The notes under the pieces were generated by a model. It ran no database searches and was not told where the DNA came from. It saw only the letters and a program-made list of their open reading frames with translations. A DNA stretch of 14,444 bases from Candidatus Rifleibacteriota bacterium (lineage in GTDB: Bacteria; Riflebacteria; Ozemobacteria; Ozemobacterales; Ozemobacteraceae): positions 1 through 14,444 of the forward strand of contig JAKQKW010000218.1 of NCBI GenBank assembly GCA_029560455.1, in the 5' to 3' direction. The position numbers and the translations under genes are program-made. Position 1 is the first letter of the stretch. Each line of letters opens with the position of its first letter. Of the stretch, positions 8,879 to 14,444 are shown in pieces.

Positions 8879-9262
8879 TCATGGCCGGGAGAAGAGTTTT
8901 TGTAGTTCGGCGGGGGTAAAGCCGGTTAAATCGCTGATTTCCTGATCAGACAGGCCGGCGGCGTGCATTCTCAATGCTACCTCAGCCTTGCCTTCGATCT
9001 TGCCCTCGATTTTGCCTTTTTTGTGGCCTCTTTTATGGCCACGGGTGAAGGAATCGCCTTTGATGATTTTCAGGGCGTCGCGGTTTTTCTCGCGGGCTTC
9101 CATCAACTGGCGCTTTTCGGCGTCGGCGTTGATTTTTTTCAATTCGCTGACCACATCAGAGACTCCTTCTTCGGTTTGCAACTCTTCATCGAGTTCGGTT
9201 TCCATTTTACCATACAGATGCCCAAATTTTAAGACATGCAGCCATTTTTCAAACCGGGTGCG
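8879..9262 (-). pseudogene. Rpn/PDDEXK-family transposase remnant, N-terminus missing
   Basis: This is the C-terminal part of a recombination-promoting nuclease (Rpn)/PD-(D/E)XK transposase-family protein. From the ATG at 9205 it encodes 108 residues, but the same frame stays open further upstream and reads RTRFEKWLHVLKFGHLYGK, which fits the middle of the family (a W-L-x-F/V-L-K segment followed by an acidic helix). That ATG is therefore probably internal and not a real start; it has no ribosome site. The remainder has the usual features: a lysine/glycine RGHKRGHKKGKIEGK linker and the terminal helix-turn-helix-like HAAGLSDQEISDLTGFTPAEL. The catalytic nuclease domain, normally about 180 residues, is absent, and its place is taken by the divergent fic gene and its promoter. 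The 9262 boundary is my estimate of where homology fades. Confidence 0.75.
8881..8965 (+). repeat. 85-bp direct repeat, left copy (Rpn tail)
   Basis: By eye about 77 of 85 bases match 12875-12959 in the same orientation. The repeat corresponds to the last 28 codons of the Rpn reading frame; similarity stops abruptly at the upstream side of the HAAGLS codons. Confidence 0.85.
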
Positions 9263-9314: not shown

Positions 9315-10325
9315 ATGCGATATGAACCACCATTTAAAATTACGGCGGCAATTATTTCGCTGATCGCTGCGATCAGCGAAGCGGTCGGCCGACTGGAGGC
9401 CGGCGCGAATGCCGGCCTTCTTCACCTGCGGCGAATCAATCAGATTCGCACCGTTCAAGGTTCGCTGGCAATTGAAGGCAACACTCTCAGCATCGAACAG
9501 ATCACTGCAATAATCGATGGAAAACGCGTCATTGCGCCGCCCCGCGAAATACTCGAAGTGCGCAATGCCCTCAAAATTTACGAAATGCTTGATCAATTGC
9601 AGCCAGACTCTCTGTCTGACCTGCTGCTGGCACATAAAATTCTGATGAGCAACCTGACTGACGATGCCGGCGCTTTTCGCAAAAAGGGTGTAGGCGTTAT
9701 GGCCGGCGAAAGGGTCGTTCACATGGCGCCGCCGGCGCAGCGTGTTCCCGGGCTTATCAACGAACTGCTGGCCTGGCTGCAGAGAACTGATCAGCACCCG
9801 CTGATAGCCAGTTCTGTATTTCATTATGAATTCGAATTCATTCACCCCTTTTCTGACGGAAACGGGCGCATGGGTCGCCTCTGGCAGACTCTGATTCTCT
9901 GCCGCAAACAGTCGCTGTACTCTGCCATCCCGGTCGAAAGCATGATTTATGAACGACAACAGCAATATTATGATGCTTTGAAAAAAAGCACTGAAAATTC
10001 TGACTCTTCTTATTTCATTGAATTCATGCTTGAAACCATTCTGGCAACGATAAGAACAGTCTTCAACCCCGAAGTCACCCCCGAAGTCATCCCCGAAGTC
10101 AAAAGAATGCTCGAGCTACTCAATAGCTCCCGCAACGCCATGTCACGTCGCGAAATACAGCAAAAGCTCGGCCTCAGTGACGAGAAGCATTTCCGGGAAT
10201 TTTACCTGCAGCCGTCGATTGCTGGCGGTCTGATAGAAATGACGGTTCCGGAACGCCCCACCAGCCGCCTGCAAAAATACCGCCTCACCCGAAAGGGCAG
10301 CCAGCTCTTATTCCCCAAAAGGTAA
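9315..10325 (+). CDS. Fic-domain adenylyltransferase, class II, with C-terminal winged helix
   Basis: A 336-residue Fic protein. Residues 1-85 are the Fic_N region carrying the inhibitory helix motif S50-L-A-I-E54-G, the (S/T)xxxE(G/N) signature whose glutamate blocks ATP positioning in autoinhibited Fic enzymes. The catalytic loop HPFSDGNGRMGR (177-188) is complete, with H177 as base and R188 for phosphate binding, so it should transfer AMP (or another NMP) to a protein hydroxyl. A linker with the repeated P-E-V unit (252-262) leads to a winged-helix domain (about 263-336). The start is fixed by the typical N-terminus MRYEPPFKI; no Shine-Dalgarno sequence exists and the -10 box is only six bases away. 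It lies divergent to the Rpn remnant and 43 bp upstream of the TPR-gluzincin gene. Confidence 0.93.
   Translation: MRYEPPFKITAAIISLIAAISEAVGRLEAGANAGLLHLRRINQIRTVQGSLAIEGNTLSIEQITAIIDGKRVIAPPREILEVRNALKIYEMLDQLQPDSLSDLLLAHKILMSNLTDDAGAFRKKGVGVMAGERVVHMAPPAQRVPGLINELLAWLQRTDQHPLIASSVFHYEFEFIHPFSDGNGRMGRLWQTLILCRKQSLYSAIPVESMIYERQQQYYDALKKSTENSDSSYFIEFMLETILATIRTVFNPEVTPEVIPEVKRMLELLNSSRNAMSRREIQQKLGLSDEKHFREFYLQPSIAGGLIEMTVPERPTSRLQKYRLTRKGSQLLFPKR
9356..9418 (+). repeat. Three consecutive inverted repeats inside the fic 5' coding region
   Basis: Seen directly: an 11-bp perfect hairpin (9356-9366/9370-9380, 3-nt loop), the 10-bp palindrome GTCGGCCGAC (9384-9393), and an 8-bp GC-rich hairpin (9397-9404/9411-9418, 6-nt loop). 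All fall in codons 14-35, at nucleotides 42-104 of the mRNA. They could fold the start of a leaderless message. Confidence 0.75.
10067..10100 (+). repeat. 12-bp tandem repeat in the fic linker
   Basis: CCCCGAAGTC recurs at 10067, 10079 and 10091 with a 12-bp period, encoding Pro-Glu-Val units four residues apart. Gain or loss of a unit keeps frame and changes only linker length between the Fic core and the winged helix. Confidence 0.85.
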
Positions 10326-12872: not shown

Positions 12873-12989
12873 TTATGGCCGACAGAAGAGTTTTTGCAGT
12901 TCGGCGGGGGTAAAGCCGGTGAAATCGCTGATTTCCTGGTTAGACAGGCCGGCAGCATGAAATGACTGACGGATAAAATCAAATTGCAT
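12873..12989 (-). pseudogene. Second Rpn-family tail fragment
   Basis: This is a 38-codon frame from an ATG at 12989. The last 28 residues, HAAGLSNQEISDFTGFTPAE and on, differ from the tail of the 8879-9262 remnant at only three residues (N/D, F/L, C/S) and end at the equivalent stop. The first 10 residues (MQFDFIRQSF) are unrelated to the family, so the fragment is joined to foreign sequence at about 12960. No ribosome site is present. It is a scar and not a functional gene. Confidence 0.82.
12875..12959 (+). repeat. 85-bp direct repeat, right copy (Rpn tail)
   Basis: Same orientation as 8881-8965, with about eight mismatches over 85 bp. The two copies bracket 3.9 kb that contains fic, the TPR-gluzincin gene and the three-helix membrane protein. 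Confidence 0.85.
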
Positions 12990-13002
12990 ATTTTGCGGCG
13001 AA

Positions 13003-13031
13003 TTGTTATTGTTAAGTTATAACTATATAAA
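13003..13031 (+). promoter_or_regulatory. Promoter of the nucleotidyltransferase pair with palindrome in the spacer
   Basis: TTGTTA (13003-13008) and TATAAA (13026-13031) are separated by 17 bp. The spacer holds the perfect 10-bp palindrome AGTTATAACT (13015-13024), well placed for a repressor such as the winged-helix partner. The local sequence is much more AT-rich than the surroundings. Confidence 0.65.
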
Positions 13032-13049
13032 ACATAGGAATTACTTAAT

Positions 13050-13634
13050 TTGAAAAAACTAAATCAAGAGAATCTTGATTCTATACTGATTCAACTCAAT
13101 GACCTGCTAGGTCTTGAGACTGCGAACTGTTTCGAACTGATAATCTGCGGCGGCTCTGCTTTGATTGCCCTTGGACTGGTAAACAGAACTACCAAAGATA
13201 TTGATGTCGTTGCCAGAATTGCGCATGGCGAGATAATTGACCCTGCTCCCCTGCCTGAAGAACTGGTAAAAACGGCAACCAAACTAGCCAGATTTTCCGG
13301 TTTGCCGGCAGACTGGTTGAATACCGGGCCCGCAGACCTTTACCGGATGGGTTTGCCAGAGGGTTTTGCGCAAAGACTGGTAACCCGTGTTATTGGAGCG
13401 AACCTCATCTTCCATTACATCAGTCGCTTTGATCAGATTCATTTTAAACTTTACGCAGCTGTTGATCGTGGCGGCTATCACATAACCGACCTGCTCGCTC
13501 TTGCGCCGACAGACGAAGAGATCAGACAGGCAGCGAAATGGGCTATGACCCACGATGTCTCTTCCGGTTTCAGAGAAATGCTTGAATTTCTGCTCAAGGA
13601 GCTTGGTTATGAACGCATCATTGCAAAACTTTAA
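13050..13634 (+). CDS. DUF6036/AbiEii-like nucleotidyltransferase
   Basis: A 194-residue nucleotidyltransferase-fold protein. Signatures in order: G34-G-S-A-L38, then R46-TTK-D50-I-D52 giving the two metal-binding aspartates, then FDQIHFKLYAAVDRG with K133 and R140, and HITDLLAL (D147), an order shared with MenT/AbiEii-type and DUF6036 proteins. The tail TDEEIRQAAKWAMTHD is typical of DUF6036. Such enzymes modify tRNA 3' ends or other targets with NTP in characterised toxin systems; that role here is inferred. The start is a TTG, with AGGA 10 bases upstream. The last 26 bp overlap the next gene, whose strong ribosome site lies inside this one, so the two are translated together. Confidence 0.78.
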   Translation: MKKLNQENLDSILIQLNDLLGLETANCFELIICGGSALIALGLVNRTTKDIDVVARIAHGEIIDPAPLPEELVKTATKLARFSGLPADWLNTGPADLYRMGLPEGFAQRLVTRVIGANLIFHYISRFDQIHFKLYAAVDRGGYHITDLLALAPTDEEIRQAAKWAMTHDVSSGFREMLEFLLKELGYERIIAKL

Positions 13635-14444
13635 GAACAGTCTGCAGGAACAGATGTTGCGGATTCTCTGGTCAGGCTGGTCTCAGCTTGGCGTTTCCGG
13701 CTACGCTTCTGAAGACTGGAACACTGTAATAGATGTTGAAGCACTGATTTTGACAACCTGCTTCTGGGGAAGATACGATCAGCGACTTTTTGATGAAATG
13801 ATTTCATGGCTGTTTGCCAACGAAAGGTTCGTTAATATTCAAAGACTGCAAAGCATGATCAAAAAAGAAAGCTTTCAGGAATACAGGCTTATGGGGCCTG
13901 TTTGCCGCAAGCTTGCCAGAAAAAAGCTGACGCCAAAATGGCGTGGCATTGAAAACAAACTCCAGAAATTAGCTTCTGAAAGCAATACCGGTCTTTTTCT
14001 TATGCCAGACAGCGATCCTTTGCCCATTATCGGCAAAACCGATGACGACTTTGCCGCTTTCGGATTTTTGCGGCTTCCCTTTATCGACCGTGGCCTGGCT
14101 TCAAGCTTTCAGGCGGGCAGGCCAGCAACGCTGCAGCTGCAGCTCAGGGCTTTTTTCGGCGTATGTTCCAGGGCTGAAATAATGCTGGCGCTGATAATGA
14201 ACAATCGTGCAAGCATAAGTCAGATTGCCACGACCTCTTTTTATTCATGGAAATCGATCCAGGATGCTCTTTTTGAAATGGCCCTTTCGGGTCTGGTAAC
14301 TCACCCTCTCGCCAAAAAAGAACGGCGCTACAGCCTTGTTGAAGGGAACTGGGCCAACCTTTTTCTCAACCGGCCGCCAGGACCTGTCGAGCCCATCAAC
14401 TGGTGCAAATTATTCAGTGCAATTGAAATTCTCTGGAAAAAACT
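13609..14444 (+). CDS. Winged-helix partner of the nucleotidyltransferase (3' end cut by window edge)
   Basis: An open frame from the ATG at 13609 runs to the window edge with 278 codons and no stop. AGGAG lies seven bases upstream, inside the nucleotidyltransferase gene, and the genes overlap by 26 bp. The N-terminal 120 residues are helical and tryptophan-rich (LWSGWSQLGVSGY, then IDVEALILTTCFWGRYDQRLFDEMISWL). Residues about 196-246 form a winged helix (ISQIATTSFYSWKSIQDALFEMALSGLV followed by a wing strand RRYSLV). I recall similar proteins beside DUF6036 nucleotidyltransferases, but they have no established name. It is plausibly the antitoxin and/or autorepressor of the pair. No catalytic motif is visible. 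Confidence 0.72.
   Translation, partial: MNASLQNFKNSLQEQMLRILWSGWSQLGVSGYASEDWNTVIDVEALILTTCFWGRYDQRLFDEMISWLFANERFVNIQRLQSMIKKESFQEYRLMGPVCRKLARKKLTPKWRGIENKLQKLASESNTGLFLMPDSDPLPIIGKTDDDFAAFGFLRLPFIDRGLASSFQAGRPATLQLQLRAFFGVCSRAEIMLALIMNNRASISQIATTSFYSWKSIQDALFEMALSGLVTHPLAKKERRYSLVEGNWANLFLNRPPGPVEPINWCKLFSAIEILWKK

Follow-up and report, generated by a model that had tools for sequence, protein, structure and literature searches.

The closest described counterparts of the locus reported here are the nucleotidyltransferase toxin-antitoxin systems AbiE and MenAT/TglT-TakA, and the defence genes carried inside type I restriction-modification (RM) operons. In AbiEi, the DNA-binding partner of AbiE, the winged helix is N-terminal. 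Motifs I and II of the AbiEii/DUF1814 enzymes read hG[G/S], about 15 residues, then DhD, together with an Arg (excerpts of PMC3985639), and MenT-type toxins have a Ser or Thr two residues before the first Asp of the DxD (excerpts of PMC11375011). Defence genes inside type I RM loci include PrrC in EcoprrI, DarTG2 in an E. coli hsd operon and the TgvAB restriction pair in Vibrio VPI-2 (excerpts of PMC12707154, PMC12255303 and PMC11411939). We analysed a 14,444-nt stretch of a Candidatus Rifleibacteriota genome (assembly GCA_029560455.1, contig JAKQKW010000218.1, forward strand; hereafter the window), at the end of which lie two overlapping genes, encoding a predicted nucleotidyltransferase ("the enzyme") and a larger winged-helix protein ("the partner"). 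An earlier sequence-only reading had taken them for a possible toxin-antitoxin or defence system. Weighing conservation, gene context and gene decay, we consider it probable (roughly 0.68) that they form a two-gene toxin-antitoxin-like module, a nucleotidyltransferase toxin with a large repressor-antitoxin, which in some lineages has been recruited into defence.

We scanned 84,980 species genomes with an enzyme alignment and obtained 236 relatives; locus counts below refer to the best 80 of these 236, with gene starts picked mechanically. The open reading frame (ORF) downstream of the enzyme matches the partner profile in 79 of the 80 loci, and in the other (L072) the contig ends 25 bp past the enzyme. 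The proposal that the two genes are conserved together, enzyme first, is thus borne out in 79 of 79 loci. The 26-bp overlap read in the window is indeed there (13609-13634); among 79 evaluable relatives it measures 26 bp in 41, 20 bp in 28 and some other length in nine, and is absent from L028 because the enzyme frame of that locus ends early. Since the relative frame is the same in all 79 relatives, the gene overlap is far beyond chance. Distances among the enzymes correlate with those among the partners, with r 0.76 for 73 pairs, a value reached in 0 of 1000 permutations. The pair occurs in Riflebacteria, Spirochaetes, Verrucomicrobia, Lentisphaerae, Kiritimatiellae and Fibrobacter, and also in several deltaproteobacterial groups, Nitrospirae, Planctomycetes, Acidobacteria, Conexibacter and others. 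Protein searches gave at least 2060 enzyme relatives at E 0.001 or better (the best 120 listed) and at least 31 partner relatives; the nearest named enzyme homologue is P0006, at 82% identity, from a Candidatus Rifleibacteriota metagenome-assembled genome (MAG), and the nearest genome locus is L001, from Candidatus Riflebacteria, at 59%. Single-sequence scans of viral contigs with the enzyme or the partner found nothing, and alignment scans found one IMG/VR contig with both genes (L081/L082). The ORF lengths and scores of that pair equal those of the Lentisphaeria locus L012, and the contig could be a provirus or a piece of host DNA. With tblastn, plasmids yielded neither gene and phages yielded no enzyme, the partner not having been tried in phages. 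We conclude that the two-gene unit is real and is conserved as a unit across many phyla.

The enzyme lies above the Pfam gathering score for DUF6036 (29 against 23.6 bits), which Pfam labels a "nucleotidyltransferase of unknown function", and below that for AbiEii/DUF1814 (PF08843; 15.1 against 22.5 bits). For the enzyme, PADLOC gave only weak AbiEii matches (E 0.04), and NCBIfam gave none. The DxD aspartates, whose conservation in homologues the sequence-only reading had made decisive, are near-invariant (D50 in 103 and D52 in 104 of 104 alignment rows). Motifs I and II fit the AbiEii/DUF1814 pattern (C33 G34 G35 x14 D50 x D52, with R46), the G, R46 and D residues being present in 103-104 of 104 rows, and T48 supplies the Ser/Thr of MenT-type toxins in 104 of 104. 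Motif III, in its COG4849 form KLxAaxxR, gives a mixed picture (K133 in 104, L134 in 96, A136 in 104 and R140 in 70 of 104 rows; the window reads KLYAAVDR, without the aromatic residue). Motif IV of AbiEii/DUF1814, +DxxD, is not matched: H144 takes the place of the first Asp in 103 of 104 rows, and the last Asp, D147, is kept in all 104. Of the assignment to AbiEii/MenT-type nucleotidyltransferases with a DxD, therefore, the DUF6036 enzyme with its conserved DxD stands, whereas membership of AbiEii is not supported by profile. The predicted fold appears MenT-like, with ANT(2'')-Ia and MenT1 tying in the fold comparison. With Foldseek, neither the enzyme model nor the partner model had a match that reached E 0.001, the N-terminal part of the partner not having been searched alone. 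The enzyme also matched a de novo designed protein (E 8e-5), but the match falls in the C-terminal helices and no stretch of it passes alone; we set it aside as a helical artefact.

The partner is cut by the window end, and a database protein of 342 amino acids (P0121) is 100% identical to it over the 278 visible residues. At about 342 amino acids it is, as had been claimed, much larger than AbiEi; it has no match in Pfam, PADLOC or NCBIfam. The conserved, tryptophan-bearing N-terminal part that had been noticed is real, W21, W24 and W67 being invariant in 98 of 98 rows. The winged helix had been placed at the C-terminus; it is central (residues ~184-258 of ~342), and the window stops at residue 278.

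We looked at the immediate neighbours of the pair, as 137 mechanically picked ORFs with those of at least 3600 bp left out. Fifteen match N6_Mtase and 13 the type I specificity domain, and PADLOC agrees. In a minority of loci, 15 of 80, hsdM lies upstream of the enzyme on the same strand, and in 14 of these 15 hsdS comes after the partner (L005, L010, L031, L034, L042, L047, L049, L050, L053, L056, L061, L064, L066, L070 and L080; L080 ends ahead of hsdS, and L010 has a short ORF between partner and hsdS). The hsdR gene comes next in L031, L053 and L066; among the ORFs tested in L034, L047 and L056 there was none. In a quick tree built from 72 loci plus the window, the RM-embedded label requires seven changes, with embedded rows in three parts of the tree (Thermodesulfobacteriota-Nitrospirota, Verrucomicrobiota and Spirochaetota-Spartobacteria). 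Further embedded cases are G846, G874 (two copies) and G808; in G025 and G297 hsdM lies upstream and the enzyme is damaged. In two other places, L154/L200 (G901) and L058, hsdM is directly downstream of the pair and not upstream.

The embedded genes are tightly packed, with 0-3 nt between hsdM and the enzyme in 8 of 15 loci and -1 to 3 nt between the partner and hsdS in 10 of 14 (hsdS starts picked mechanically), as might be expected of a non-toxic RM accessory or regulator in which an Hsd subunit or DNA is the substrate of the enzyme and the partner regulates the operon. However, 65 of the 80 loci, some on short contigs, were not seen embedded, and the stand-alone pair shows the same degree of conservation, so that we regard such an accessory role as unlikely. 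If the pair is instead a toxin-antitoxin module, the copies inside the restriction operons of some relatives would be candidates for a built-in shutdown switch, and those between hsdM and hsdS would form a second, abortive line of anti-phage defence. More tentatively, the embedded partner might guard restriction itself, monitoring HsdM/HsdS assembly (or methylation) and freeing the enzyme to cap tRNAs and halt the cell when a phage disables restriction. That possibility, for which we would claim perhaps a minority chance, would amount to a PrrC-like strategy with an unrelated enzyme, and the stand-alone copies, the window's included, might then be the autonomous ancestral or released form.

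One-sided decay would be expected if the enzyme is a toxin that is not kept without its antitoxin. Five genome samples were searched with both profiles (240, 39, 247, 228 and 225 genomes; the first and last share some genomes, and the phylum label of each sample is deduced from its named locus). They hold 12, 2, 8, 2 and 35 further intact pairs, including more divergent ones in G278 (Riflebacteria sample), G683 (Spirochaete sample) and G320 (sample around a Syntrophaceae genome), and including G776 contig 173, which was counted as intact despite a flagged stop near the enzyme end. At 14 loci (6, 0, 4, 0 and 4 per sample) the partner is full-length and the enzyme is broken, truncated or absent though upstream sequence is present (first sample: G025, G111, G232, G200, G177, G214; third: G441, G297, G318, G355 contig 438; fifth: G879, G776 contig 377, G948, G897 contig 83). 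The enzyme is intact and the partner cut at one locus (L107, G249), where about 25 recognisable partner residues are followed by other sequence, which by motif we take to be part of a glycosidase; this may be a real deletion or a chimeric contig. The difference, 14 against 1, has p 0.001. On a stricter count, which requires an enzyme remnant, 10 loci stand against 1 (two-sided p ~0.012, by hand; G025, G111, G232, G200, with a weak remnant at E 0.005, G441, G297, G879, G776 contig 377, G948 and G897 contig 83). Loci that could not be decided, owing to contig ends or to partner remnants without enzyme, were kept outside the count (G107, G148, G466, G818, G949 contigs 307, 181 and 30, G867, G911 and G957 contig 169). 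As the partner is the longer gene, chance frame errors should strike it more often; the opposite is seen. Judged from these genomes, the enzyme is lost as one expects of a toxin that cannot persist once its antitoxin is gone.

The decay also bears on the reverse polarity, in which the nucleotidyltransferase would be an antitoxin that modifies a toxic partner, as in HEPN-MNT, where the toxic partner has a conserved RX4-6H. Some small nucleotidyltransferases are antitoxins, and the N-terminal part of the partner is strongly conserved and its role is without assignment. However, the partner outlives the enzyme in 14 loci and the converse holds in one, the partner has a winged helix, and no column of its alignment has His in 50% or more of the 98 rows, so that it has no conserved RX4-6H; we think this polarity improbable. 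That the enzyme modifies drugs or metabolites and is paired with a regulator of its own, in the manner of ANT(2'')-Ia, which equals MenT1 in the fold comparison, is very improbable: such enzymes do not show obligate pairing by overlapping genes, embedding in RM operons or one-sided decay, and no link to drugs was noticed, though no search aimed at one was made.

In a toxin-antitoxin module of this kind, the enzyme would most likely move nucleotides onto RNA (tRNA 3' ends, by analogy with MenT-type toxins, which extend these ends and arrest growth), and translation would stop. The partner would bind and silence the enzyme, perhaps via the invariant T48, the site that matches that of MenT1 auto-phosphorylation. 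In stand-alone copies, among which we would place that of the window, the partner would repress the promoter that the two genes share, acting at an inverted repeat by the start codon. Over 50 aligned columns, the leaders of the window and L001 agree in 38, and none of 500 shuffles did as well. Both leaders carry ATTACTTAAT unchanged just ahead of the start codon, and the L001 copy forms one arm of a perfect 13-15-nt inverted repeat. The short palindrome that had been noticed in the promoter spacer is present, but is better read as part of the longer repeat 13012-13026/13034-13048, which replaces it as the possible operator; the conserved inverted repeat of the Riflebacteria leader is a candidate operator. 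Exact arms of at least 9 nt occur in 12 of 63 stand-alone leaders, 0 of 15 RM-embedded leaders and 22 of 337 neighbour genes (stand-alone leaders against neighbour genes, p 0.003), the control rate being lowered because some neighbour genes lie inside operons. Such repeats in stand-alone leaders, and in none of the 15 embedded ones, make autoregulation plausible where the pair has its own promoter; it is not expected where the pair is read through from hsdM.

The translation signals fared less evenly. The TTG start of the enzyme is confirmed at 13050, and the strong ribosome site of the partner is present in the window as AAGGAG, but AGGAG is not general in relatives. The argument that a weak TTG and a strong AGGAG would favour an excess of partner is not supported: most relatives are without these signals, and their enzymes mostly start with ATG.

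The toxin-antitoxin reading and its regulatory part also have weak points. The proposed promoter is present as TTGTTA, 17 nt, TATAAA, but without support from a consensus scan, which did not report it and found one other site where 1.0 is expected. The window leader is not significant by exact arms (5 nt, p 0.98). In the decay count, loci that are related are not independent events, and frames read from MAGs can be erroneous. Finally, the window copy has no hsd gene upstream, and its downstream side lies past the window.

Features of the gene pair in the window (pLDDT, predicted local distance difference test)
Feature	Position	Strand	Details
Enzyme ORF	13050-13634	+	194 amino acids, TTG start; DUF6036 nucleotidyltransferase; proposed toxin; PF19502 29 bits (cut-off 23.6); model pLDDT 96.4
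AGGAA, possible ribosome site of enzyme	13036-13040	+	9 nt ahead of TTG
Partner ORF	13609-14442, cut by window end	+	ATG at 13609; 278 amino acids visible; proposed antitoxin and repressor
Overlap of enzyme and partner genes	13609-13634	+	26 bp; same relative frame in 79/79 relatives
AAGGAG, ribosome site of partner, within enzyme gene	13596-13601	+	7 nt ahead of partner ATG
Promoter-like TTGTTA (13003-13008), 17 nt, TATAAA (13026-13031)	13003-13031	+	weak; not reported by the consensus scan
Palindrome AGTTATAACT in promoter spacer	13015-13024		inside longer inverted repeat
Imperfect inverted repeat, candidate operator	13012-13048	no strand	arms 13012-13026 and 13034-13048, 15 nt, 80% complementary
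Enzyme motifs I-II: C33 G34 G35 S36 ... R46 x T48 x D50 x D52	13146-13205	+	conservation, 104 rows
Enzyme motif III-like F132 K133 L134 x A136 ... R140, and D147 (altered motif IV)	13443-13490	+	104 rows
Partner N-terminal part, mostly helical	13609-14118	+	invariant W21, W24, G28, D42, R59, W67, R79 (98/98 rows); model pLDDT 93.3
Partner winged helix-turn-helix, residues ~184-258	14158-14382	+	ArsR/MarR-type profile matches; fold matches over 166-258

Elsewhere in the window, a PIN-domain protein (PF01850; 3461-4101, minus strand) is directly preceded by a 78-residue ORF that we take to resemble a VapB antitoxin, and the two are a probable VapBC pair. A Fic-domain protein with a Fic-like C-terminal domain is encoded at 9315-10325 on the plus strand. 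A similar C-terminal tail (...LTGFTPAELQKLF...), presumably like those of Rpn-family nucleases, is found twice on the minus strand, at 8879-9205, without a Pfam match, and at 12878-12990, apparently as a remnant just upstream of the pair.

More distant DUF6036 enzymes belong to the same superfamily and are also paired, with a partner that differs from the window's. In the Verrucomicrobiota sample, 14 genomes had weak enzyme matches only, and the nine loci read encode catalytic-looking DUF6036 proteins without a partner of the ~342-residue type, which we treated as another subfamily. In seven of the nine (L144, L145, L146, L148, L149, L150 and L152) a different small protein of about 124-142 residues (a longer ORF in L146) lies on either side of the enzyme, possibly a second partner class. 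Seven Akkermansiaceae genomes had weak enzyme-like matches and no partner; three of the sequences read are without catalytic motifs and a fourth begins alike. The three (L212, L213 and L215) are enzyme-like ORFs of 174-180 residues without GG, DxD or partner, two of them in similar surroundings, and are possibly a domesticated, inactive form.

If the pair is a toxin-antitoxin module, a function would be given to DUF6036 and to a conserved partner family unnamed in Pfam, PADLOC and NCBIfam, type I restriction operons would gain one more independent example of a built-in suicide-type module, and anti-restriction would be linked, testably, to translation shutdown. The word DUF6036 was found in no open-licence PubMed Central (PMC) full text (preprints outside scope; a preprint of Payne et al. 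on embedded defences could overlap), and no publication was recognised as describing the pair, judging by titles and abstract openings. The module looks undescribed.

The module compares with the known systems as follows. Like MenAT/TglT-TakA (DUF1814), it has a small nucleotidyltransferase of similar predicted fold whose gene overlaps that of its partner, and T39, D41, D43, K137 and probably D152 of MenT1 (excerpts of PMC10435456 and PMC11375011) correspond to T48, D50, D52, K133 and D147 of the enzyme. Unlike it, the enzyme is DUF6036 by profile, the enzyme gene comes first, motif IV of the pentad is altered, and the partner has about 342 residues with a central winged helix. With AbiE (AbiEi-AbiEii), a type IV toxin-antitoxin system of abortive infection, it shares an hGG...DhD nucleotidyltransferase, a winged-helix DNA-binding partner and an inverted repeat at the promoter (AbiE features from excerpts of PMC3985639). 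However, the gene order is reversed, with the partner downstream in 79 of 79 loci, the AbiEii profile is not passed, and the partner is much larger, without a named-family match and with its winged helix at 184-258. Like PrrC, DarTG2 and TgvAB, the embedded copies are extra, putative defence genes packed within an hsd operon, with a proposed tie of their activity to RM status; the proteins differ, and the pair lies between hsdM and hsdS, whereas DarTG2 lies between hsdS and hsdR.
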